Shown here: piece by piece, positions 26,874 to 41,754 of the stretch
Layout: every line of letters begins with the position of its first letter
How positions within the stretch are numbered: the first letter of the stretch is position 1
Source: an uncultured Granulosicoccaceae bacterium
Lineage (GTDB): Bacteria > Pseudomonadota > Gammaproteobacteria > Granulosicoccales > Granulosicoccaceae
Direction: 5' to 3'
Assembly: GCA_937981955.1 (NCBI GenBank)
Contig: CALJNA010000087.1
Span: forward strand, 1-64,000
DNA length: 64,000 nt
Made by a program: the position numbers and the translations under genes
The notes under the pieces: model-generated
Database searches by the model: none
Told to the model about the DNA's origin: nothing
Seen by the model: the letters and a program-made list of their open reading frames with translations, nothing else

Positions 26874-27548
26874 TTAAACATCAGCCCACATGCGTAACAG
26901 GTTGCTATAAACCTGCTCTATTTGCTGGGTCACCATTGCCTTGGGAGTACTTCGGTTTAAAGCTTCACGTGCCTCATTCAAGTCGTGGAGTATCTCCCGC
27001 TGCTGTGAGTCACGCACCATGCTCTGCGCCCATAATGCGCAAACAATACGTTCGCCTTTTGTAACGGGCATAACTTCGTGCAAACTTGAAGCAGGATAAA
27101 TGACGGCGCTTCCGGCTGGGAGTTTTACACTGACTGGGCCGAATTGGGATTGAATCGTCAGTTCTCCACCTTCGTATGAGTTTGGCTCGCTTAAAAAAAC
27201 CGTTACAGCAACATCACTTCGGTATCGCGCGTTTATTGTTCCCATAACAGGGTCATCAATGTGTCGGCCGTAGTGCATGCCGGGACCGCAGCGTGACACG
27301 AATGCTGCTGATACTTTTGATGGCAGAACTATGCTTTGGAATACCGGATGCTGGTACAACTTGCCAACCACCAGCTTGTTGATAGAAGCCCAACTGGCGT
27401 TTGTCTGGTCCATTTCCTCGTTGTGTTTTTTGTCTTGCGCCTGGGCGCCGGCGGTATGGCTGCCCGATTTCCAGGTAGCGGTTTGAATAAGCGAATAGAT
27501 CTGTTGCAGATCGGTATCTATTAGCAGCTTGTTGATTTCACTTTGCAT
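26874..27548 (-). CDS. piuC: Fe(II)/2-oxoglutarate dioxygenase, PiuC/YbiX type
   Basis: The 224-residue protein matches PKHD-type hydroxylases. Iron ligands are in MHYGRHIDDPVMG (HxD) and ASSLHEVMPV, with the 2-oxoglutarate Arg in GERIV, and FVSRCGPGM and EGGEL also fit. In relatives piuC lies beside TonB siderophore receptors and responds to iron, but no receptor is here. It is convergent with the S24 gene (7 bases) and follows a second oxygenase by 21 bases, so the two oxygenases may share a transcript. Confidence 0.9.
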   Translation of the reverse strand: MQSEINKLLIDTDLQQIYSLIQTATWKSGSHTAGAQAQDKKHNEEMDQTNASWASINKLVVGKLYQHPVFQSIVLPSKVSAAFVSRCGPGMHYGRHIDDPVMGTINARYRSDVAVTVFLSEPNSYEGGELTIQSQFGPVSVKLPAGSAVIYPASSLHEVMPVTKGERIVCALWAQSMVRDSQQREILHDLNEAREALNRSTPKAMVTQQIEQVYSNLLRMWADV

Positions 27549-27569
27549 GGTGTGCTCTGTTCATCGCAT

Positions 27570-28142
27570 TTAAGCGAATAAAACCCAGGTGGTTGCAATG
27601 TATTTCACACCGCTTTCAAGCGTCACACCTCTGTGTTCGTGGGTCCAGAATGGTGGAAACAATAATAGCTTTCCCACTTCCGGTTTTATGCAAACGCCTT
27701 GATGTTTAAATTCAGTTTCGCCGCCAGGACCATCGACATCGTTCAAATACCAGATGGCTACCAGCTGTCTGTCTGCAAATGAATGACTGCCACTATCGAC
27801 GTGCCAATGAAAAAACTCGCCGGGCTGTGTGCGTTGTATGGCATAGCCGTAGTCTTTGAAACGGCCCTGAAAAAAAGTATGTTCGGAGCGCATGAATCTC
27901 AGAGCACCTGCAAGGGATGCAAACAAGGTTTTATCAACATCACGCCAGTGCTCCTTGCCGCTGATGACAAGATCAGTGGAGCGTTTTATATCAGTGTTCT
28001 CAATTTCGGTTTGTCCTACACGGCCCTGATACTGCTCTTCAGCTGCATGTTCAAAGCGATCTATAACGTTCGCACAGAATGGCGGACTTAGCGCGTTGTT
28101 CGCAACGTAAATGTGGGTTCCGGGTTTGTATTCGGTAAGCAT
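27570..28142 (-). CDS. 2OG-Fe(II) oxygenase superfamily protein
   Basis: The 190 residues show the double-stranded helix signature: HxD in EFFHWHVDSG, GGETEF and the distal His in PPFWTHEHRG. The 2-oxoglutarate-binding Arg position is less clear. Spacing is like that of prolyl-4-hydroxylase-like bacterial oxygenases. It is the upstream partner of piuC. Substrate unknown. Confidence 0.85.
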   Translation of the reverse strand: MLTEYKPGTHIYVANNALSPPFCANVIDRFEHAAEEQYQGRVGQTEIENTDIKRSTDLVISGKEHWRDVDKTLFASLAGALRFMRSEHTFFQGRFKDYGYAIQRTQPGEFFHWHVDSGSHSFADRQLVAIWYLNDVDGPGGETEFKHQGVCIKPEVGKLLLFPPFWTHEHRGVTLESGVKYIATTWVLFA

Positions 28143-28369
28143 GGTTGTTTTGTCGGTTTAGCGACTATCGAATCGAGTAAGCGCCTTAAAGTGTGCAAGA
28201 GGGGTTAGAATAGCATGATGGTCCGCTTCGGCAGCTTTTGCGAATATGATCGTGTTTGGGCAGCAGCGTATTTGAGCGGCGTGTATGAGCGGCGTGTTGA
28301 GCAGCGAGTTGAGCAGCGAGTTGAGCAGCGGAATGAGACACTCGCTCGTCGCAGGTCGGGGGAATAACG
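28143..28369. other. Divergent intergenic region with degenerate 12-bp repeats
   Basis: This 227-base gap separates two divergent genes and holds their promoters, which I cannot place. Its right half is dominated by TTGAGC(A/G)GCG repeats. Confidence 0.4.
28297..28332. repeat. 12-bp tandem repeat, three copies
   Basis: TTGAGCAGCGAG occurs at 28297-28308 and 28309-28320 and as TTGAGCAGCGGA at 28321-28332. Degenerate TTGAGCGGCGTG units precede it from 28272. It is not in frame within a likely gene. Confidence 0.85.
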
Positions 28370-28960
28370 ATGGTAGTACGTCGTATAAAAGATCGATGGC
28401 ATAACTCCACGCCGGATAATGTCGAGCGTGAGGTACTCAGTGAGAAGACCTTACACGATCAGGCTAGTGCGATTGCTTTCATTCAGTGGCGTACGGCCTT
28501 GAACACGGCCATCAATCTGCATGCTGAAGATTTCCGCTACGACGATGATAAGCAGCGGATAGGCGTTATCACTGAGTACCTCGCGTTTCAGATACAGTTG
28601 ACAGACAGGCTTTGCAGTGAGTTCTTATCCGATGATGAACGCACCATGTTTATTACCGAAGTGGTCCGTAAAGCATCCGAGCAAGTGCAGGATAATCTTC
28701 AGGATATAGCCGGGCCGGGAAATTACGCTCCCCCCTTCGTTGCATTGCTGAATAAGCGATTCGGTGAATATGCAGAATGTCAGTATAAGGATGGTATGCC
28801 CGGTTACGACGCCAAACGATTACTCGGCTATTCGATACTCATGCTGCTGGGCGAAGACCAGACGAATCGCTGGGTTATTGATCAGGTGATTGAACTGGAT
28901 GCGCCTGAGGTTATCGCGCAAAATGTGAAATCGCTGAAACGGCTGTTTGGCAAAGAATAA
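28370..28960 (+). CDS. Conserved-type hypothetical protein (196 aa)
   Basis: I do not recognise a domain. The protein is charged and mainly helical, without signal peptide or membrane segment. It is rich in Asp, Glu and Gln, with a segment around residue 117 (AGPGNYAPPFVALLNKRF) that looks conserved-type. The ATG follows a GGGGG ribosome site at a plausible distance. It is isolated, with a weakly AT-rich gap before the next small gene. Confidence 0.7.
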   Translation: MVVRRIKDRWHNSTPDNVEREVLSEKTLHDQASAIAFIQWRTALNTAINLHAEDFRYDDDKQRIGVITEYLAFQIQLTDRLCSEFLSDDERTMFITEVVRKASEQVQDNLQDIAGPGNYAPPFVALLNKRFGEYAECQYKDGMPGYDAKRLLGYSILMLLGEDQTNRWVIDQVIELDAPEVIAQNVKSLKRLFGKE

Positions 28961-31520: not shown

Positions 31521-32669
31521 CTATAGGCCGGCATCCAATCTGCGCAACGCCTCGCCTGAGGCAATGGCCGCTCTTGCCATATCTGCAGCTTTTGCAATAT
31601 TTTTTTCCTTGCCGGTGTGCCAGATAACCAGAGCCGCGCCGAGTACAGCTGCATCTAATAGTGGTCCGCTTTTACCTGATAAGGCTTCGCGTCCCTGTTC
31701 TGCACACAAAGAGGACAGTTCATCGATATCCCACTTCATCCCGACAGGGTGATTATCTTTTGATGCCAGCGGTACGGTTTCAGGGATATCGGCAGCTCGG
31801 TATTCTCGTAACAGGTCCATATCGGTCAGTTCCAGATCGATTTCTTCGAACCCATCCGGCTCGTCAATGGCTGCGTCATCTGCATAGCGAATAACATGGG
31901 CTGGTGCACGAAAGGAGGGGATGATGCCACCTTCGGTTCCCCTCACTAATAGCAATGATTCGTATCCGACATGTCGCGCCAGCATGCAATAGGTATTGCG
32001 ATAAGGTTTGTGTACATAGCCGGTAATCAGGTGGGTTTTCTTTTTGCCTTTAACAGGAAACACCAGTACCTCGGTTGTGCTTAGTACCGGCCGTTTGACA
32101 ATACGCGCACGTAATTCGTTAAGTTCGTGCAAAGCCGGGCACATGATGCTTTGATCGAGGTAACCCCAGCCGATATTGCGATCTGCAATTCGCTTCGCAA
32201 CCGTCGCAGTGCTCCGCAGAGGATCGCCTCCAAGCGCTTTGATAATAGTGTGATGGGTTACACCAAACTTTGGACCACCTAATTCAACGCCGTGTGAGTA
32301 GGCATGGATACCGCAGGCGGCCAGAACCGGCAGCACGAACAATGATCCCTGCAGCGTTCGGTTGAATCCGTTGTAAGGGTCGGCAATAGCGACCACTTCG
32401 TCTACGGGTGATTGCTCGACCGGTGTTAAGTCTTGCAGCGCATCCATAACACCAAGCAGCTCGTCGTCGGTTTCACGTTTCATGCGAAGCCCAATAAGAA
32501 AAACGCCTGCCTGCACTGGGTCGGCTTGACCGGCAAGCAGTGCGTGCATGACTGACCGGGTTTCTTCGCGTGACAGGTTTTTACTCAGCTCGGGTCCTGT
32601 GGCTACACGTTGTATGGCTGAACGCATCAGCTCTGCGTCGGCAATCTCGTAAGGTATTGGCATGACCAT
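31521..32669 (-). CDS. TrpD2/YbiB-like protein of the anthranilate phosphoribosyltransferase fold
   Basis: From an ATG at 32669 the protein has 382 residues (an upstream GTG at 32717 is open but overlaps the Rieske gene). The fold is TrpD-like: N-terminal helical domain with FLIGLRMKRET, then VLPVLAACGIHAYSHGVELGGPKFG. The PRPP motif GTGGD is replaced by ADPYNGFN, so it is probably not a transferase. E. coli YbiB of this type binds nucleic acid. It is the last gene of the minus-strand unknown cluster before folB. Role unknown. Confidence 0.8.
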   Translation of the reverse strand: MVMPIPYEIADAELMRSAIQRVATGPELSKNLSREETRSVMHALLAGQADPVQAGVFLIGLRMKRETDDELLGVMDALQDLTPVEQSPVDEVVAIADPYNGFNRTLQGSLFVLPVLAACGIHAYSHGVELGGPKFGVTHHTIIKALGGDPLRSTATVAKRIADRNIGWGYLDQSIMCPALHELNELRARIVKRPVLSTTEVLVFPVKGKKKTHLITGYVHKPYRNTYCMLARHVGYESLLLVRGTEGGIIPSFRAPAHVIRYADDAAIDEPDGFEEIDLELTDMDLLREYRAADIPETVPLASKDNHPVGMKWDIDELSSLCAEQGREALSGKSGPLLDAAVLGAALVIWHTGKEKNIAKAADMARAAIASGEALRRLDAGL

Positions 32670-32691
32670 GATGAGTACTTTTTCCGAGTGA

Positions 32692-33009
32692 TTAATCCAA
32701 AGTGATGTATACGTCACCAGCAGATATGGTCACTGGGTACGTTTGCAGGTCGACACTGGCTGGATCATCCAGCACTTTGCCTGTGGTTAATTCAAAGCGA
32801 CTCCCGTGCAGCGGGCATTTGACTTTTGTACCTGCAAGATTTCCATCGCACAATCTGGCATCTTCGTGAGTGCACATTTCATCAGCAACGAAAACTCCCT
32901 CGGCTGTATTGGCGACCAGCACGTTTCTGTCTGCAAGAGAAACACAGCGCATCTCGTTCGCAGGAATATCGCTAACCCGGCACACTTTAATTTGTGAATC
33001 GGTGGTCAT
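32692..33009 (-). CDS. Rieske-type [2Fe-2S] ferredoxin
   Basis: The 105 residues form a small soluble Rieske protein: the cluster ligands are CTHEDARL and CPLHGSRFEL. These resemble ferredoxins that feed ring-hydroxylating dioxygenases or the NirD-type subunit. No signal peptide is present. It lies 22 bases upstream of the TrpD2-like start, so these two are cotranscribed. Its partner may be the oxygenase or reductase at 35-37 kb. Confidence 0.92.
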   Translation of the reverse strand: MTTDSQIKVCRVSDIPANEMRCVSLADRNVLVANTAEGVFVADEMCTHEDARLCDGNLAGTKVKCPLHGSRFELTTGKVLDDPASVDLQTYPVTISAGDVYITLD

Positions 33010-33224
33010 TGATTCAATCGAACTCCGTATGATGGTGTCTGGCCGTCTGCAGCCGATAAAACATTGTATCGCATGACACTGTCTGTGATGAGCCTGATTC
33101 CGCGTCCGCCAATGCGGTGTTGATGTGATTCAAAGCCGGCGGTATACCTTAAGTGATATCGGCTCGTACACGTATTGCCGGTATAATTGGGTATTACGAA
33201 GAAACGGCTAATCTGGAGCTGCTG

Positions 33225-33677
33225 ATGGACGAATTGAGTGACGAGCAGGCGATGCAACTTTCGAGCGGGGTAGCGGCATTTGAAGCAAAGGAGTTCCGTC
33301 GGGCGTGGCAGTTACTCGAGCCTTTGTCCGATATGAGCCTGCCCGATGCGCAATATCGTTGCGCCATCATGATTCAAAATGGACTGGGAGTGATTGCAAG
33401 ACCTAACGCTGCAGCAAAGCTTATGCAACGTGCCGCTGAGCAGGATTTCGGGCTTGCTCAGCATTCACTGGGAGTAATGTATTTATTCGGTGAAGGAGTC
33501 GAGCAGAATGGCGATCAGGCCACATACTGGCTTGAGCTCGCTGGCGCAAGTGGGTTGGCTGGTGCCTGGTCTACGCTGGGCATGATGTTTATGGAGGGGC
33601 AAGGCGTTGAGAAGAACGCCGATAAAGCGCGCGAGTACTATGAAAAAGCCGGCTTCGATCCGTCTGAATTTGCCTAA
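33225..33677 (+). CDS. Sel1-repeat (TPR-like) protein
   Basis: From ATG 33225, with GGAG at 33215-33218, the protein has 150 residues. Two clear Sel1 repeats are seen (AQHSLGVMYLFGEGVEQNGDQ and AWSTLGMMFMEGQGVEKN), and a less typical one before them. Sel1 proteins act as scaffolds. A frame open from 33153 would add 24 residues but lacks the ribosome site. It is the only plus-strand gene inside an otherwise minus-strand group. Confidence 0.85.
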   Translation: MDELSDEQAMQLSSGVAAFEAKEFRRAWQLLEPLSDMSLPDAQYRCAIMIQNGLGVIARPNAAAKLMQRAAEQDFGLAQHSLGVMYLFGEGVEQNGDQATYWLELAGASGLAGAWSTLGMMFMEGQGVEKNADKAREYYEKAGFDPSEFA

Positions 33678-33703
33678 CGAGCTTTATTAACATTATCCAA
33701 AGC

Positions 33704-34405
33704 TTAGTTCATGTCGGGTGCTGTGTTGTCGTGTACAGCGCCTGTATCTTTGTGTGGAATCAGTAAGCCGCAACCCATCGTTCTGCCATCGCCTAATCCG
33801 CTATCCTGCAAGTTAATCGAGGCTCTTGGTGGAACATCGGCCAGCATCACACTGCGTGTTTTCCGCACGCCCTCATTGGTGTTAATCGAATGCATTCGAC
33901 CACACAAAATTTTGGTAGGTGAAAATTCGATTGACCTGCAATGGTCTACGATTTGTTGAACAAAAGCAGATTCATCCTCAATATCATTTTCAGCTTCAAA
34001 ATACGCATAGCGGGAAAACAGCGTGTGCTGAGGTGTTAGTGGTCGAACCTGACCGGCATTTATCTGCAGTGGTAAGCCATCAACGCTTAGTGTGACGCCA
34101 TTGAGCTCTGCCATAAGTTGTTCTGCGCCTGCAGATTCTGTTCTGACTCTGAATCGGGTACGCCTGGATAGCAACAGGAACTCAGCACCATCCTCCGGCC
34201 TCTCCCAGCCGTTTTGCGAGCCGGCAACATGAATTGGATGGATACCTGAGCAGATTGAATCTTTAATTTGTGGTGCAATTTCGCAAACCGCGTTCGCCAA
34301 AGCAGCAGCATGGTCTACGCGCAATTGACGGCAATCTATGCGAAACACAACATCGGTCATCTTCGCAGTCAAAGCTTGTTGGTTATCGGAAGGTTCTTGC
34401 CACAT
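33704..34405 (-). CDS. Cas6/Cmx6-like protein without CRISPR locus
   Basis: The 233-residue protein has the RAMP-fold features of the MYXAN-type Cas6 (Cmx6) family: the middle contains HPIHVAGSQNGWERP and RRTRFRVRTE, and the C-terminus has the glycine-rich loop GLGDGRTMGCG (GxGxxxxxGxG). No CRISPR repeats or other cas genes are in the window. It may have a role other than CRISPR processing. A catalytic His is not assignable without alignment. It follows the 239-residue unknown by about 30 bases on the same strand. Confidence 0.75.
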   Translation of the reverse strand: MWQEPSDNQQALTAKMTDVVFRIDCRQLRVDHAAALANAVCEIAPQIKDSICSGIHPIHVAGSQNGWERPEDGAEFLLLSRRTRFRVRTESAGAEQLMAELNGVTLSVDGLPLQINAGQVRPLTPQHTLFSRYAYFEAENDIEDESAFVQQIVDHCRSIEFSPTKILCGRMHSINTNEGVRKTRSVMLADVPPRASINLQDSGLGDGRTMGCGLLIPHKDTGAVHDNTAPDMN

Positions 34406-34434
34406 ACTTCAAGAGTTGGTATTCAAGATAATCG

Positions 34435-35154
34435 TTAGTCAGGAAGTTTTGCCTGTAGTGCTTCGCGATCGAACCACCAGTCGCTTTGCACCATGACATC
34501 AATTACGTTTCTGAGTCGCACCAGGAATTTTTCCGGCAAATCCAGCTCTAGACGTTCAACCCATAGCTCGAATTCGATCTGCGACTGGACATTTCCATGT
34601 CGTTTGGCAACGCGGGCAAGGTTCGCTCCACTGAAAAGTTTTAATTCTTCGTGTCTTGCGCCGTTGGAACGTAAGTCAACGACATAGTGCGCGGTGGCTG
34701 CAGCAACGGCAGCCCCATCGGAATTGTCGGGTGTTTCGTCGATAATGTGAGTCAGTATGTTCGCTGTCAAGTGCGGATCAACGGGATAGGTTACCGACAG
34801 CCAGGCTGCCTGACCAATCGCGGCAATCGCATCTTCCTGATCCGCTAGATAGACATACTGGCAAGCAAGTGCTGCATCTTCGAACGCTTCATGCGATATG
34901 AATGTATCAATGGCAGGTCGAGCATATTTCCAGGCTTCTTCTTTGCGATCAAGATCGAGCAAAAGACCGGCGACTTCAAGCGCGATCTGATCTTGTTGCA
35001 ACTTACTGTTGCTATTGGTTGTTGCATCTGCCTTGACAGACGCAAGAGTGCTAAGCAGTGTTTGTACTCGTGCCTCACGATCAGCATCGGGTGTTTTGTC
35101 CAGCAGGCGTTTTTCAGCATCGCTCAATTTAATTTCAGCACTAAAGTCAATCAT
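34435..35154 (-). CDS. Hypothetical helical protein (239 aa)
   Basis: I do not recognise a family. The protein has many charged helices, Ala/Leu-rich pairs and probable TPR-like turns (LLLDLDRKEEAWKYARPAIDTF, AAWLSVTYPVDPHLTANILTH), with no signal peptide, cysteine cluster or membrane segment. Its start overlaps the end of the upstream 64-residue gene by eight bases. Position between the oxygenase and Cas6-like genes suggests a member of the same operon. Confidence 0.7.
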   Translation of the reverse strand: MIDFSAEIKLSDAEKRLLDKTPDADREARVQTLLSTLASVKADATTNSNSKLQQDQIALEVAGLLLDLDRKEEAWKYARPAIDTFISHEAFEDAALACQYVYLADQEDAIAAIGQAAWLSVTYPVDPHLTANILTHIIDETPDNSDGAAVAAATAHYVVDLRSNGARHEELKLFSGANLARVAKRHGNVQSQIEFELWVERLELDLPEKFLVRLRNVIDVMVQSDWWFDREALQAKLPD

Positions 35155-35341
35155 CGCTGAGTAATCCGGTAAACGCTCCTTCGAGCACCATCTCCCAGTT
35201 CTGCGGTGTATCAGGGAAAGGTGGTTTAATGTCCATGCGAAAAAAACGCTCCTCTTTGGCGCGCTCTTTTACTACCTCGATGAGTTCTGTAAAGGTGTTT
35301 ATATCTTTGTGTTGCAGCAAGATGTCACTAACGTACAGCAT
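35147..35341 (-). CDS. Small hypothetical protein (64 aa) overlapping the dioxygenase stop
   Basis: The likely ATG at 35341 overlaps the end of the dioxygenase gene by 14 bases, giving MLYVSDILLQHKDINTF to GAFTGLLSDD. A longer frame from 35449 would overlap the dioxygenase by 122 bases and is less likely. No domain is recognised; it is acidic, with an FFRMDIKPPFPDTPQNWE stretch. Overlaps on both sides argue for translational coupling with its neighbours. Confidence 0.65.
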   Translation of the reverse strand: MLYVSDILLQHKDINTFTELIEVVKERAKEERFFRMDIKPPFPDTPQNWEMVLEGAFTGLLSDD

Positions 35342-36395
35342 GATTGTGATCGTCGGATGGGTAAGTGAACTGACTTGCCAATTCGGGCTGGGGCAGCTGG
35401 GTAAATCGACCACGGAGTATCTGTCTTTTGGGGTATCCTGCTCGATCAATAAATTGCTCGCGTGTGTGCAGCACGTTGCGTGTTATAACTCCCTGACCTT
35501 TTTTCAGATTGATTCGGGTTTGCCAATGTGGGTTGGCATCGATGAGTTCATGTGCTCTTTTCGCTGCAGCCTTCGTCGCTTCACAGTGCCACGCTATATT
35601 CTGGCTGCGCGTGGTGAACCGTATCGCGATGGCTCCATCTTCATGCTGGAATATCATCGGTAATGTTCGATCGGGTCTGTCGTGTCCTTCCTTATCGCGA
35701 TTGTGTGGCAGTGTCATCGCTTCCGGATGTGACAACAGCTTTACCAGTTCCGGATTTTCATCGTGCAATGCGAGTACCAGAAAAGTATCGTCCATTAACC
35801 GCAACGCGCCGCCTTGCGCAGCAGCTTCGACACAGTGCAGCGTGAAACATCGAATGCTTTGGTCCTGGGCGTTGTAATAACCGTCGGTGTGCCAGTTCAT
35901 TGCGGCCGGCTGGTAAGGGGGGAACCGTCCGCGTGGTGTACCTGTAAGGTCTTGCAACAGGGATAAGTCACCGTGCTCACGCATGACACCCGAGTCACCT
36001 CCCTGCAAAGACAATTGCTTCAGCATCTCGCTTAGCGCTCCGGGAATGTTCTCTGGTTCATTGTCCCAGCCATACACAGCAAACCCTGACTGAATCACGG
36101 TGTGGCACAGGTTTGTCAGTGTAGCTTTATCGAGTCTTGTTAGCGTCTGAGCTGGTATCTCAATAACGGTCGACGTGTCGGCTTTCGATTGGCGCTGCGC
36201 ACGCCGACGAGTTTCGTCAATCCAGGTCGACAGGCGCAACTCACAACCGTCGAACAGGCTTGGATAGGCCGGTTCTGCCATCTTTTTTGTTATTCGTGAT
36301 GCGGGCATGCAGATGCGCGTGGATTTACCTGTGTGTAGGCCTCCATCATAAATCGTTGCGCCCCAATGAGCAAAGTGTCTGAAAACACCTGCCAT
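35328..36395 (-). CDS. TauD/TfdA-family 2-oxoglutarate dioxygenase
   Basis: The 355-residue protein has the Fe-binding HxD in MNWHTDGYY, the second His in NVLHTREQF and the Arg-containing GYPKRQILRGRF for 2-oxoglutarate. The fold resembles TauD/TfdA/gamma-butyrobetaine oxygenases. The first ~35 residues are not typical, and ATGs at 36305 and 36281 are possible starts. The substrate is unknown. No taurine or sulfonate genes adjoin it. A ferredoxin-reductase gene precedes it by about 66 bases. Confidence 0.82.
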   Translation of the reverse strand: MAGVFRHFAHWGATIYDGGLHTGKSTRICMPASRITKKMAEPAYPSLFDGCELRLSTWIDETRRRAQRQSKADTSTVIEIPAQTLTRLDKATLTNLCHTVIQSGFAVYGWDNEPENIPGALSEMLKQLSLQGGDSGVMREHGDLSLLQDLTGTPRGRFPPYQPAAMNWHTDGYYNAQDQSIRCFTLHCVEAAAQGGALRLMDDTFLVLALHDENPELVKLLSHPEAMTLPHNRDKEGHDRPDRTLPMIFQHEDGAIAIRFTTRSQNIAWHCEATKAAAKRAHELIDANPHWQTRINLKKGQGVITRNVLHTREQFIDRAGYPKRQILRGRFTQLPQPELASQFTYPSDDHNHAVR

Positions 36396-36461
36396 AAAAT
36401 CCGCTGTGGCGATATGCCTTATGAGATAGAACGATTCAGCTCTGCGATTGATTTCAATTTT

Positions 36462-37433
36462 TTATGAAGCTGGAAAGAAAATCGAATCTGGCGGAATGCC
36501 CAGATTAATCAGATTTTGATGCAGCTCATGGTGCATTGCGCCTATGTACACCTCGTATCCCGGATTTTTGCTTAACCAGGAGGCTGGTAGCACGGAACAA
36601 ATTGCTGCGTTGGTTTCAATAGCCAGAAAATCGAAATTATCAAATGCATCGCGCCAGGACTGGCACCAGTTCAAGCGGTAGTGCGGCGTATTTGCGCTGG
36701 CTTGCCATATTAAAAAACAGGGTACATCAAGCTCACTGTTCAGGACTTGCTCGATCATGCCCTGAAGTTGGGCAAACTCAATGCCATTTGCAATAAATAA
36801 CTTGGGTTTGCCAATATTATTGCTCAGCGTAAAGTCTCCCAACGGACCGGATACGCTGATACGTTCGCGCGAACGAGCTTCCAGCATTAACTCGGCCCAT
36901 TGTGCTGCTTCTAATTGAGAGTGTTCATTGTTGGCTATGTGAAATTCAACGTATTGTGCGTTGCATGGGCAGCTGGCAATAGCTAACTCAATACTGCTGC
37001 CAGCGGATTGGGTTAATTGCACTCTCTGTCCCGGTAAGAAACGTAAAGCTTTTCCACGTACAAACTTAAATGCCAGTACGATGACGTTTTGGCTGCGTTC
37101 CGACCGGCACAGTTTTGCCTGCAGCTCTTGATGGGGAATGTCGACTACTGAATTAGCTTCAAGTACCTCTATGTTGATGTTTTGATTGGTGCTGCATGAA
37201 CAGAGCAGGCAATGCCCGTCCAGTTTCTGGGTTTCAGTCAGAACAAAGTCGTGATGTTTGATTTTGTCCACGCTACCGGTTTGAACTCGCGCCTGACATG
37301 TGCCACAGCTACCGTTGGCACAGCCGAAAGGCAACGCAATCCCTGCCGCAAGACCGGCCTCAAGAAGGGTTTGTCCGGGCAGTACTTCAAATTGCCTGCC
37401 GCTGGGCACCATGGTGACGCTACCAATTTTCAT
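36462..37433 (-). CDS. 2Fe-2S ferredoxin plus FAD/NAD oxidoreductase fusion
   Basis: The 323 residues have a plant-type [2Fe-2S] domain at the N-terminus, with cluster Cys in CANGSCGTCQA and CLLC (residues about 38-77), then an FAD-binding domain (VQLTQS region) and an NAD-type domain. This is like the reductases of CDP-glucose dehydration or Rieske dioxygenase systems. The NAD motif region is less canonical. It is the furthest-upstream minus-strand gene of the cluster and the probable electron supply to the Rieske protein. Confidence 0.82.
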   Translation of the reverse strand: MKIGSVTMVPSGRQFEVLPGQTLLEAGLAAGIALPFGCANGSCGTCQARVQTGSVDKIKHHDFVLTETQKLDGHCLLCSCSTNQNINIEVLEANSVVDIPHQELQAKLCRSERSQNVIVLAFKFVRGKALRFLPGQRVQLTQSAGSSIELAIASCPCNAQYVEFHIANNEHSQLEAAQWAELMLEARSRERISVSGPLGDFTLSNNIGKPKLFIANGIEFAQLQGMIEQVLNSELDVPCFLIWQASANTPHYRLNWCQSWRDAFDNFDFLAIETNAAICSVLPASWLSKNPGYEVYIGAMHHELHQNLINLGIPPDSIFFPAS

Positions 37434-37863
37434 GGTTACCTGGGCAGTTGGTGAAGGTGTGTAAATGCATAAACTTGTACATGAATCCTTTTTAAGTAAT
37501 TGATGTTTTGTCTATTTCCTTTGTTATATACCAATCTGCATAGTACAAGGTAATAAATGTAATCAGTGAAACAGGCCCGTGGCTTCTGCTCGAAATTTGC
37601 CCTTTGATATTAATAATTATCGGGCTGCATCAGTGTTGAATTTGTTCAATGAGTATGGTTCTATGAGTGTGAGCGACGTAGAAAAAACTTTTGGCGTGCG
37701 ATATAAACACAAACTCTCTGGCTCTAGAATGGTATGAGCTTAAAATTGCATGAGCTCTTAAAGGGAGTAATCACTGAGCTTGATAACGTTCGCTTGGCAA
37801 ACTATCCAATAATTAGAACTATTCAGTACAAACTATCCAATTCACATGAGAGAGGTCAGCAGC
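37434..37863 (+). promoter_or_regulatory. Regulatory region upstream of fccB with repeated ACTATYC elements
   Basis: This 430-base AT-rich gap precedes fccB and the dsr operon, and also must contain the promoter of the divergent minus-strand cluster. CAAACTATCCAAT occurs twice (37798-37810, 37829-37841), 31 bases apart, and a third ACTATTC lies between (37818-37824). Spacing and direct orientation resemble binding sites of a regulator. No gene is visible. TATA-like elements are present but not assignable. Confidence 0.5.
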
Positions 37864-39138
37864 GTGAGTAATATCTCTAGAAGGCAGTTTAATACTATGC
37901 TCGGTGTGGGCGTAGCCAGCATAGCGGTTCCGGCCGGAATACGTGCACAAGCCAAACCCAAAGTGGTTGTCATTGGTGGTGGAGCTGCAGGCGCAACCAC
38001 GGCACGCTATGTAGCAAAAGACTCAAAAGGCGAAGTAGATGTTACGCTTATCTCAGCCGACGACAAATACACAACGTGCTTTTTCTCAAATCTGTACCTC
38101 GGCGACTTTCGAACGTTCGAATCGATTACACACTCATACGACAAGTTGTCCTCAGAGTACGGTGTAAAAACCGTTATCGGATATGCACAAGGTATCGATA
38201 CCGCAAAGAAAGCCGTGAGCATGGCCGACGGCTCATCGGTTCCTTACGATCGTCTTGTCGTGGCACCTGGTATCGATCTTAAATACGATAGCGTTCCAGG
38301 CTACTCGAAGGATGCTGCAGAAATTGCACCGCACGCATGGCAAGCTGGCGCGCAAACCCAGCTGCTGAAAAGCAAACTTGATGCATTGGAAAACGGTCAG
38401 AACATCGTTATGGTTCCGCCGCCAAACCCTTACCGTTGTCCTCCAGGACCATACGAACGTGTATCGATGATGGCGCATATTTTGAAAACGCGCGGTTTAA
38501 CTGATAGCAAAATCATTGTTGTTGACCCGAAACCAAAATTCTCCAAGCAAGGCCTGTTTATGGAAGGTTGGGAAAATCACTATTCAGGCATGGTGGAATG
38601 GTACGGGTCCGATGTGCACGGTGGCATTGCAGGTGTTGATGTAAACGCTGGCACAGTCGAAACCGACCTGGATACATTCGAAGGTGCGCTGTTAAATGTT
38701 ATTCCCGGTCAAAAAGCCGGGGCTATCGCATCGGAAGGTGGTTTGACCGACGATAGCGGTTTCTGCCCAATCGTTGCTGACTCCATGCGTTCCACCATGG
38801 ATGAGAATATCTATGTACTTGGGGACGCCAGTATTGCCGGTGCAATGCCAAAATCTGGATTCTCTGCCAATAGTCAGGCAAAGGTTGCTGCCATGAATAT
38901 AAGAGGCGACTTGCTGGACTCAAAAGTATTCCCGGCAAAATTCAGTAACACCTGCTGGAGCCTGATTGGAACAGACGATGGTGTAAAAGTTGGTGCACAA
39001 TACGCAGTTGAGGAAGGCAAAATTGCCTCTACTTCTAAATTTATAAGCCAGACCGGTGAAGATTCTGCTTTGCGAAAAACCACTTATGAAGAATCCCTCG
39101 GCTGGTACGACGGCATTACCACTGATATGTTTGGCTAA
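37864..39138 (+). CDS. fccB: Flavocytochrome c sulfide dehydrogenase, flavoprotein subunit
   Basis: This FAD protein oxidises sulfide in the periplasm. The GTG at 37864 follows GAGG at 37852-37855; an ATG at 37846 is open but less well placed. The 424 residues begin with a Tat signal (ISRRQFNTMLGVG). They have the FAD site VVVIGGGAAGATTA, a redox Cys in RCPPGPYER and another in NTCWSL, which form the active disulfide in known FccB, and the C-terminal FAD-binding VLGDAS. It precedes the dsr operon by a 247-base gap. The cytochrome subunit is not adjacent. Confidence 0.93.
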   Translation: MSNISRRQFNTMLGVGVASIAVPAGIRAQAKPKVVVIGGGAAGATTARYVAKDSKGEVDVTLISADDKYTTCFFSNLYLGDFRTFESITHSYDKLSSEYGVKTVIGYAQGIDTAKKAVSMADGSSVPYDRLVVAPGIDLKYDSVPGYSKDAAEIAPHAWQAGAQTQLLKSKLDALENGQNIVMVPPPNPYRCPPGPYERVSMMAHILKTRGLTDSKIIVVDPKPKFSKQGLFMEGWENHYSGMVEWYGSDVHGGIAGVDVNAGTVETDLDTFEGALLNVIPGQKAGAIASEGGLTDDSGFCPIVADSMRSTMDENIYVLGDASIAGAMPKSGFSANSQAKVAAMNIRGDLLDSKVFPAKFSNTCWSLIGTDDGVKVGAQYAVEEGKIASTSKFISQTGEDSALRKTTYEESLGWYDGITTDMFG

Positions 39139-39282: not shown

Positions 39283-39385
39283 TGTTGGGGCGATTCTTTC
39301 TGCACAAAGATGGATAGTCGTTTCAAGTTCAACCCACTACAATGTACGAATTCCCAGTTTTTCAATGGCCCGGAGCCTGAATGCC

Positions 39386-40663
39386 ATGACCGATAAAGAC
39401 CCGGACAACAAGCACGACACCCCCATGCTCGATCACCTGGAAACAGGTCCGTGGCCAAGTTTCGTATCCGGTATCAAGCGCCTGCGTGATGACCATCCCA
39501 GTGACCGGGTCAATGGCATGGCGAATGATTTGCTTGGACAGCTTGAACATTCCTACAAAACCCGTAAGGGTTATTGGAAGGGTGGAACGGTCAGTGTGTA
39601 TGGCTATGGTGGCGGCATCATTCCGCGCTTCTCCGAAGTCGGCGATATGTTCCCCAAGTCACGGGAGTTTCATACCTTGCGCGTGCAACCACCAGCGGGA
39701 AATCACTACACCACTGATGTGCTGCGTGATCTGGCCGACAGTTGGGAAAAACACGGTTCAGGTCTGGTCACATTTCACGGCCAAACCGGCAATATCATGT
39801 TCATCGGTGCAACAACCGAAAACACCCAGCATTTTTTCGATGACATAAACGAATACGGATTCGATCTAGGTGGTGCCGGACCATGTGTTCGAACGGCGAT
39901 GTCTTGCGTTGGCGCTTCGCGTTGTGAAATGTCGTGTACAAACGAGCATAAAGTTCATCGTAGCCTGGTTAACAATTTCACTGACGATGTGCACCGACCA
40001 GCGTTGCCGTACAAATTCAAATTCAAAGTATCGGGTTGTCCCAATGACTGCATGAATTCTATTGAACGAGCAGACTTCGCTGTTATTGGTACGTGGCGCG
40101 ATGACATGAAAGTTGATCAGGATGCATTCAAACAGTACGTGGAAAAGAAAGGCCGGCAACACGTCATAGACAACATAATTACACGATGCCCAACCAACTC
40201 GCTGTCGCTAAAGGAAGATGACAGCATCGAAGTGGACAATCGAAACTGCGTACGCTGTATGCATTGCCTGAACGTCGTGCCGTCAGCCTTTAGCCCGGGT
40301 GACGACAAAGGCGTTAGCATTCTGATTGGTGGAAAGCGCACGCTGAAAATTGGCGATCTGTTTGGCACTGTCATCGTTCCCTTTATGCGTCTGGAAACCG
40401 AAGAGGACTACGAACGTATTGTTGAAATTGCAGAAGAAACCATCGACTTCTTTGCCGAAAATGCACTCGAGCATGAGCGTACCGGTGAAATGATTGAACG
40501 CATCGGATTAGTTAACTTTCTTGAAGGTATCGGAGTCGACGTTGATCCCAACATGGTATCTCACCCTCGTGAAAGCTCGTATGTGCGTATGGACGATTGG
40601 GATGAAGAAGCGGCAAAGTGGTTTGAGCGCAGGGCCGAAGCGGCTGCAGGGAGTAACGCCTGA
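39386..40663 (+). CDS. dsrA: Dissimilatory sulfite reductase alpha subunit (reverse-type)
   Basis: DsrA with DsrB forms the cytoplasmic sirohaem enzyme that here would oxidise sulfane sulfur to sulfite. From the ATG at 39386 (CGGAG at 39371-39375) it has 425 residues; an upstream ATG at 39365 lacks a ribosome site. Sirohaem/[4Fe-4S] cysteines are in CVGASRCEMSC and VSGCPNDC. A ferredoxin domain near residue 290 has NRNCVRCMHCL. The presence of dsrE, F, H and L nearby indicates the oxidative type. dsrB overlaps by TGATG. Confidence 0.97.
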   Translation: MTDKDPDNKHDTPMLDHLETGPWPSFVSGIKRLRDDHPSDRVNGMANDLLGQLEHSYKTRKGYWKGGTVSVYGYGGGIIPRFSEVGDMFPKSREFHTLRVQPPAGNHYTTDVLRDLADSWEKHGSGLVTFHGQTGNIMFIGATTENTQHFFDDINEYGFDLGGAGPCVRTAMSCVGASRCEMSCTNEHKVHRSLVNNFTDDVHRPALPYKFKFKVSGCPNDCMNSIERADFAVIGTWRDDMKVDQDAFKQYVEKKGRQHVIDNIITRCPTNSLSLKEDDSIEVDNRNCVRCMHCLNVVPSAFSPGDDKGVSILIGGKRTLKIGDLFGTVIVPFMRLETEEDYERIVEIAEETIDFFAENALEHERTGEMIERIGLVNFLEGIGVDVDPNMVSHPRESSYVRMDDWDEEAAKWFERRAEAAAGSNA

Positions 40664-41754
40664 TGTCTAAAACCAATTCAGCTAAGAAGGAAATGCGTCC
40701 GGCCATTGAGAGCGGTTGCCCTGACGGGATGCAGTATTTGCATCCGGTTATGCTTCGTAACTTTGGCCAATGGGTAAACCACACACATCCGAAACCTGGT
40801 GTGCTGTGTCATATTGCCGCCAGTGGCGAATCCATCTGGACGGTGCGTGCTGGTACTCAGCGAATTCTTGACGTCTACACGCTTCGCAAACTGTGCGATA
40901 TAGGTGATGAATACGCCGATGGACACGTTCGCTTCACCATTCGATCAAACATTGAATATATGGTGGACAAGGAAGAGAAAGTTGAGCCTTTGATTAAAGC
41001 ACTGGGCGATGCCGGATTCATAGTGGGAGGCACGCAGAATACGGTTGCCATGATTTCACACACGCAAGGTTGGTTGCACTGCGATATTCCGGGCACCGAT
41101 GCCTCCGGTATAGTGAAATCGATGATGGACGAACTCATACACGAGTTTACTCATGCCGAAATGCCAAACCGCGTGCATATCACCACATCATGTTGTCAGA
41201 TTAACTGCGGTGGTCAGGGCGATATTGCCATTAATATCCAGCACACCAAGCCACCGAAGATTAATCATGATCTGGTTGCCAACGTGTGCGAAAGACCATC
41301 GGTAGTGGCGCGTTGCCCTGTTGCAGCGATTCGTCCGGCTATGGTGAATGGCAAGCCCTCGCTTGAAGTTGATGAAAAGAAATGCATTTGTTGCGGTGCT
41401 TGTTATCCGCCATGTCCGCCAATGCAAATCAACGACCCTGAACATTCCAAGTTGGCTGTGTGGGTGGGTGGTAATCACTCTAATGCTCGCAGTAAGCCGT
41501 CGTTTCAGAAACTCGTTGCTGCAGGCATTCCGAATAATCCGCCGCGCTGGCCCGAGGCTACCGAGGTGGTTAAAAAGATTCTTTATGCTTACAAGGAAGA
41601 TGCAAAAGACTGGGAACGCATAAACGACTGGATCGATCGTATTGGCTGGCCGCGTTTTTTCGAGATCACAGACTTGCCGTTCACCAAGTTCCATATTGAT
41701 AATTGGCGCGGTTCGAGAAAAAGTTTGAATTCATCCAGCCATATCAGGTTCTAG
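40663..41754 (+). CDS. dsrB: Dissimilatory sulfite reductase beta subunit (reverse-type)
   Basis: DsrB pairs with DsrA and holds the catalytic sirohaem. The 363 residues include the early SGCPDGMQYLHPVMLRNFG, the cluster and sirohaem Cys region ITTSCCQINCGGQGD with VARCPVAAIRPA, and the ferredoxin stretch CICCGACYPPCPP. Its ATG overlaps the dsrA stop, and dsrE follows after 9 bases. The protein aligns with normal family length. Confidence 0.97.
   Translation: MSKTNSAKKEMRPAIESGCPDGMQYLHPVMLRNFGQWVNHTHPKPGVLCHIAASGESIWTVRAGTQRILDVYTLRKLCDIGDEYADGHVRFTIRSNIEYMVDKEEKVEPLIKALGDAGFIVGGTQNTVAMISHTQGWLHCDIPGTDASGIVKSMMDELIHEFTHAEMPNRVHITTSCCQINCGGQGDIAINIQHTKPPKINHDLVANVCERPSVVARCPVAAIRPAMVNGKPSLEVDEKKCICCGACYPPCPPMQINDPEHSKLAVWVGGNHSNARSKPSFQKLVAAGIPNNPPRWPEATEVVKKILYAYKEDAKDWERINDWIDRIGWPRFFEITDLPFTKFHIDNWRGSRKSLNSSSHIRF

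Follow-up and report, generated by a model that had tools for sequence, protein, structure and literature searches.

A CRISPR-free Cas6 clade tied to reverse-Dsr sulfur oxidation in gammaproteobacteria, with a possible role in RNA-based control

The first 64,000 nucleotides of contig CALJNA010000087.1 (GCA_937981955.1, an uncultured Granulosicoccaceae bacterium), hereafter the window, contain a divergent accessory operon that adjoins a reverse dissimilatory sulfite reductase (reverse-Dsr, rDsr) operon. The accessory operon consists of dsrQ/tauD, the genes of two proteins here termed U64 and U239, and a cas6-like gene; judged by sequence comparison, its constant member forms a Cas6 clade that is free of clustered regularly interspaced short palindromic repeats (CRISPR) and separate from the CRISPR Cas6 proteins used for comparison. 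We refer to this dsr-linked Cas6 as Cas6L. In gammaproteobacteria it is tied almost one-to-one to DsrA, and because of this near one-for-one occurrence with sulfur-oxidation genes Cas6L is probably a dedicated part of reverse-Dsr energy metabolism. That it is an exapted Cas6 we regard as close to certain; that it regulates by acting on RNA we put somewhat short of an even chance. The statement as a whole, exaptation together with an RNA-acting regulatory mechanism, receives a probability of about 0.42.

Among 370 class genomes the Cas6 family is present in 128 and DsrA in 124: 121 carry both, seven Cas6 only, three DsrA only and 239 neither (Fisher p=1.7e-84, a statistic that ignores phylogeny). 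In all three DsrA-only genomes (L104-L106) the contig breaks off on the side of cas6L. As to the Cas6-only genomes, one (G403, locus L096) holds a genuine CRISPR locus with Cas-like neighbour genes and cas1 on the same contig, one (L094) does contain a piece of dsrA, four (L095, L097, L098 and L100) reach a contig end, and the last (L099) is accounted for by neither a contig end nor CRISPR genes. A set of 95 relatives gave the same picture: the Cas6 family occurs in 29, of which 27 have DsrA above cut-off and one more a DsrA cut short by the end of its contig, and no genome of the 95 has DsrA above cut-off without Cas6. Within the host genus the same five of 27 genomes have both, the other 22 neither. 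The phylum-wide sample yielded the Cas6 family in four same-class genomes only, all with DsrA. The family is also retained in genomes of 1.0-1.6 Mb.

Gene order tells the same story. Loci were taken from relatives as segments of at most 20 kb, together with 80 loci from named genomes, and genes were labelled with profiles built from the loci themselves; many of the genomes compared are fragmented. The recurring arrangement is dsrA divergent from tauD–U64–U239–cas6L–DsrC paralogue. In 82 of the 98 loci with at least 4.5 kb of sequence upstream of cas6L (34/42, 45/53 and 3/3), a divergent dsrA lies within 6 kb; Allochromatium, Thiocystis, Lamprocystis and three further same-class genomes are among them. 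The named carriers comprise, among others, Allochromatium palmeri, A. warmingii, Thiocystis, Halochromatium, Lamprocystis and Sedimenticola. Within the unit it is Cas6L that is constant and not TauD, which is absent from the stretch between dsrA and cas6L in many linked loci, including those of Allochromatium and many phototrophs, as would be expected of an oxygen-dependent enzyme. Outside the class, four of the examined genomes with DsrA and no Cas6 (L207, L209-L211) keep TauD and U64 beside dsrA; TauD–U64 is therefore the wider unit and Cas6L the class-specific one. In two genomes of 1.4-1.5 Mb, cas6L lies away from dsr (L092 8782-9441; L093 8669-9379), divergent to a gene identified by eye as RNase III (rnc), which is followed by an era-like gene.

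The genes of the window locus, with Pfam E-values for the window proteins where a family was matched, are as follows.

31521..32669, minus strand: TrpD2-like (anthranilate-phosphoribosyltransferase-like) protein; PF02885 (Glycos_trans_3N, 2.2e-15), PRK07394 below cut-off; mainly a family-level neighbour, in 17 loci
32692..33009, minus strand: Rieske ferredoxin; PF00355 (8.6e-19); family-level neighbour in 12 loci, mostly of the host family
33153..33677, plus strand: Sel1-repeat protein; PF08238 (7.8e-24); on the opposite strand, in the same position in host-family relatives
33704..34405, minus strand: Cas6-like protein (Cas6L), 233 amino acids, the constant member; PF09559 (1.6e-49) and fold match
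34435..35154, minus strand: U239, 239 amino acids, all-helical, acidic, resembling tetratricopeptide repeat (TPR) proteins; no Pfam family; syntenic in many loci
35147..35341, minus strand: U64, 64 amino acids, acidic, conserved; no Pfam family; invariant residues in a 35-sequence alignment; syntenic
35328..36395, minus strand: TauD/TfdA-family Fe(II)/2-oxoglutarate oxygenase, DsrQ; PF02668 (2.5e-15); iron-site residues invariant
36462..37433, minus strand: 2Fe-2S ferredoxin-reductase, BenC-like, a local addition; Fer2 (4.7e-13), BenC profile below cut-off
37846..39138, plus strand: flavocytochrome c sulfide dehydrogenase (FCSD) flavoprotein; FCSD_central E=1.1e-42; between the cluster and dsrA
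39365..40663, plus strand: dsrA, reverse type by gene context; TIGR02064 615 bits (cut-off 393), and gene order
40663..41754, plus strand: dsrB

A reading of the window from its letters alone (the sequence-only reading) had grouped the genes from 31521 to 37433 as one multi-enzyme cluster. Its open reading frames lie on the strands it gave, the overlaps it reported are exact (14 bases between oxygenase and U64, 35328-35341; 8 bases between U64 and U239, 35147-35154), and profile matches bear out its labels for Cas6, Rieske, Glycos_trans_3N, TauD, Fer2 and Sel1. It was also right to see a conserved cluster of an oxygenase and a Cas6-like protein with no complete CRISPR system. A single run of seven genes is not what the locus holds: the opposite-strand Sel1 gene separates the Rieske and TrpD2-like genes from the remainder. 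The co-occurrence that it proposed to look for in other genomes was found, well beyond chance, for tauD–U64–U239–cas6 together with dsrA, and outside the host family was not found for the Rieske, TrpD2-like and reductase genes. The first two of these, like the Sel1 gene, accompany the cluster mainly within the host family, and a reductase homologue occurs in only seven of the loci examined, mostly as a weak match and hardly beyond the genus. The postulated electron chain of reductase and Rieske protein, with the TrpD2-like protein in the same unit, thus does not go with the core in other families, and a single operon of all seven genes was rejected, the Rieske, TrpD2-like, Sel1 and reductase genes being local. 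The TrpD2-like protein also misses the TrpD2/YbiB NCBIfam equivalog cut-off (86.6 against 185 bits). Absent from that reading was the dsrABEFHCMKL operon, which is the key to understanding the locus: it begins at 39365 and is transcribed away from the tauD–U64–U239–cas6L cluster, from which it is separated here by the unrelated reductase gene and the FCSD gene.

Three further features of the window recur near dsr and cas6L or adjoin a gene that does. Two small 2-oxoglutarate/Fe(II) hydroxylase genes (26874-28142), one of them PKHD-type and YbiX-like, recur there in many loci. A conserved 196-amino-acid protein with no Pfam match (28370-28960, plus strand) does likewise; in the same-class genomes L204 and L206 its gene stands immediately after a DsrC paralogue or one gene on. 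Just ahead of it in the window is a short tandem array of 12-base units (28286-28333).

Oxygenases of this kind already have a name, dsrQ, the cited source of which is reportedly Lenk et al. (2012). The window gene is a TauD-family gene upstream of, and divergent from, dsrA, as a dsrQ should be. The iron site H169-x-D171...H310 and several arginines are invariant in 34 sequences. Among solved structures its closest relatives are those of TmpA and gamma-butyrobetaine dioxygenase and not that of taurine dioxygenase, and membership of a carnitine pathway, which the sequence-only reading had allowed for, is not borne out: the protein scores 36 and 32 bits against NCBIfam cut-offs of 415 (BBOX) and 268 (TMLD). 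A tauD-like gene upstream of dsr is already called dsrQ in print, with release of sulfite from sulfonates as a speculation (PMC7596348). With the Fe/2-oxoglutarate residues intact, sulfonate dioxygenase may be counted as a candidate activity.

U64 and U239 matched no family in sequence and structure searches, U239 showing a weak likeness to TPR proteins; U239 is very acidic (isoelectric point, pI, 4.4). The DsrC paralogue that usually stands 3′ of cas6L in most other lineages, and is not in this window, lacks cysteines and ends in RKGGY. In L033, L037, L044, L082-L091 and others, where it is next to cas6L, its C-terminus is a nearly invariant (R/K)RKGGY. One further DsrC-family gene, and no more, was found in the genome to which the window belongs (L225, G000:C52, 1423-2220, plus strand); it encodes a DsrC-like domain fused to what appear to be two CBS domains.

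Database names would make Cas6L a CRISPR protein. It matches PF09559 at 169 bits (cut-off 26.7), and the PADLOC Cas6 model is matched by 48 of 48 family members. The window protein misses the NCBIfam Cas6/Cmx6 equivalog cut-off (75.2 against 98.85 bits); some relatives do far better on the Cmx6 profile (best E 4e-44). No cas genes were found among the identified neighbours of the locus and no array-like repeats between 27000 and 39500 of the window. A search for cas1 gave no match in 47 of 80 family-carrying genomes, a set that includes the CRISPR-bearing G403; among the 47 are the window's own genome (77% complete) and several single-contig genomes. Comparison sequences from CRISPR loci were taken from cyanobacterial plasmids with cas3/cas8 adjacent, and in a midpoint-rooted tree these and the G403 sequence form a clade apart from all dsr-linked sequences (support 0.91). 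Distances between Cas6L proteins follow those between the corresponding DsrA proteins (mirror-tree r=0.65; permuted maximum 0.23). A plasmid search returned no match to the window Cas6L. Another Cas6/Cmx6 without nearby cas genes was noted on a plasmid of Gloeobacter morelensis (L201, 3971-4762), next to a phosphoadenosine phosphosulfate reductase-family protein, a cupin and genes of no known kind. A degenerate CRISPR locus was rejected on the residues, the separate clade, the missing array and the general lack of cas1. That Cas6L is an orphan CRISPR Cas6, or its position mere chance adjacency, is scarcely credible: the Cas6/Cmx6 label is set against the co-occurrence (p=1.7e-84) and the synteny in 82 of 98 loci, besides the missing cas1 and the separate clade.

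The AlphaFold model of Cas6L (mean predicted local distance difference test, pLDDT, 92) finds its best fold match in the Cas6 of a type I-B CRISPR-associated transposon (CAST; 8fcu_B, E=3.2e-15), followed by other Cas6 structures, several of them with RNA. The catalytic histidine of Cas6 usually sits in helix 1; H32, at the start of that helix, is shared by 124 of 125 dsr-linked sequences and six of six CRISPR Cas6 sequences, and the glycine-rich loop is retained (G203/G205/G211/G213). The dsr clade has near-invariant residues of its own, namely W2, H56, W67, R82, E145, K165, G169, R184 and K219, of which W67, R82, E145, K165, G169 and K219 are characteristic of it.

We suggest that an ancestor of these sulfur oxidizers recruited Cas6 from a type I-MYXAN/I-B-like CRISPR system, the direction from CRISPR to sulfur metabolism being assumed, and that the recruited protein became a dedicated part of rDsr metabolism. 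Because its helix-1 histidine and glycine-rich loop are intact, Cas6L has most likely retained binding to a specific RNA and may also cut it; the best candidate would be an RNA through whose processing or stability Dsr protein levels are adjusted to sulfur. U239 could then be a helical scaffold, the DsrC paralogue possibly a sensor of sulfur state, and DsrQ an O2-dependent add-on missing from many anaerobic phototrophs. That a lone Cas6 processes RNA controlling reverse-Dsr sulfur oxidation across the gammaproteobacterial sulfur oxidizers, purple sulfur and reduced-genome lineages included, we advance tentatively, as rather less than an even chance.

Several observations weigh against an RNA-acting Cas6L. 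The dsr clade is mildly acidic (median pI 6.1) and CRISPR Cas6 basic (9.4-10.0), which weakens the case for RNA binding, although these values describe overall charge and not the surface. A catalytic role for H32 is suggested by position and conservation, and the CAST I-B Cas6 has asparagine there. Dsr does not need Cas6L everywhere, since 32 genomes outside the class in the phylum sample have DsrA without PF09559. A search of dsr spacers found no RNA substrate, and no known RNA family was found in the window. Hairpins below -12 kcal/mol occur in 63% of dsrA-dsrB and 85% of dsrC-dsrM spacers (mean z -1.87 and -2.84), far more commonly than in other dsr spacers, the dsrH-dsrC spacer having almost none; their position is conserved, their sequence not. 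The two hairpins of one genome are no more alike than those of different genomes (p=0.35), and dsr operons that lack Cas6 (L207, L209, L210) have like hairpins too. Because likeness within genomes is at chance and the hairpins also occur without Cas6L, a shared dsr-spacer hairpin was dropped as its substrate.

The shift in overall charge from basic to acidic would also suit a Cas6 fold that no longer acts on RNA and instead binds proteins, alongside U239 and the cysteine-less DsrC paralogue, with a part in assembly, in the docking of sulfur carriers or in the control of transcription. The very acidic (pI 4.4), helical, TPR-like U239 would be a natural partner, and the new invariant residues W2, W67, R82, E145 and K219 point to a new interface. 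A near-invariant helix-1 histidine and a glycine-rich loop are, however, hard to explain with a dead RNA site, and we consider this account rather unlikely. If instead DsrQ frees sulfite from sulfonates into the Dsr/Apr route, as the published speculation (PMC7596348) and the invariant iron-binding triad would allow, Cas6L would be an unrelated passenger. It is the passenger that is constant and TauD that is missing in many linked loci, including Allochromatium, and the nearest solved relatives are not taurine dioxygenases; such a scheme is quite unlikely.

DsrC and DsrEFH share homology with the relay that serves tRNA thiolation (TusE/TusBCD-type). Cas6L might act on tRNA and keep such a relay from mixing tRNA 2-thiolation with sulfur oxidation. 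This role, in our estimate very unlikely, would be in keeping with the DsrC-family paralogue that usually follows cas6L and with the thiouridine biosynthesis raised for A. vinosum DsrC paralogues (PMC3368242). Highly improbable is the single pathway of the sequence-only reading, in which reductase, Rieske protein, oxygenase, Cas6 and TrpD2-like protein make or modify an RNA- or nucleotide-linked compound: the genes are adjacent in the host family, but reductase, Rieske and TrpD2-like genes do not accompany the core elsewhere, the setting is one of reverse-Dsr sulfur oxidation, and the proposal is unsupported and largely refuted.

In textbooks, stored sulfur is oxidized by way of the rDsr operon, which has been the subject of genetic work in Allochromatium; species of this genus carry the locus, so that a direct test is possible. 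Either sulfur oxidation has a component still to be accounted for, or an RNA enzyme of CRISPR systems has found a new use; in addition, surveys of CRISPR that score solitary Cas6 genes would miscall these genomes. No published cas6–dsr link was found in the open-access papers covered, and an earlier report in a subscription journal is possible; a gene tied to rDsr that databases label as CRISPR Cas6 has apparently escaped notice so far.

Parts of the locus resemble known systems. Its oxygenase shares family, place and direction relative to dsrA with dsrQ, whose description in the accessible part of PMC7596348 concerns the oxygenase alone, with U64, U239 and Cas6L unmentioned. The cas6L-linked paralogue shares PF04358 with the DsrC/TusE family and differs in its missing C-terminal cysteines and its RKGGY end. 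With the Cas6/Cmx6 of type I-MYXAN and CAST I-B systems (TIGR02807, PF09559; PDB 8fcj/8fcu), Cas6L has in common whole-length homology, the Cas6 (RAMP) fold, the glycine-rich loop and the helix-1 histidine, the last not in the CAST protein. Unlike them, it has no cas genes or array at its locus, forms its own clade, is acidic and tied to dsrA, and carries extra GNGW and SRRTR motifs and an MxWxE start. CRISPR parts in other functions are likewise represented by the dev operon, type IV systems and STAND-linked CRISPR derivatives (PMC8730458, as far as accessible). The cases of exaptation in that part of the source keep several cas genes or concern CRISPR RNAs (crRNAs), whereas here a lone Cas6 stands in energy metabolism.

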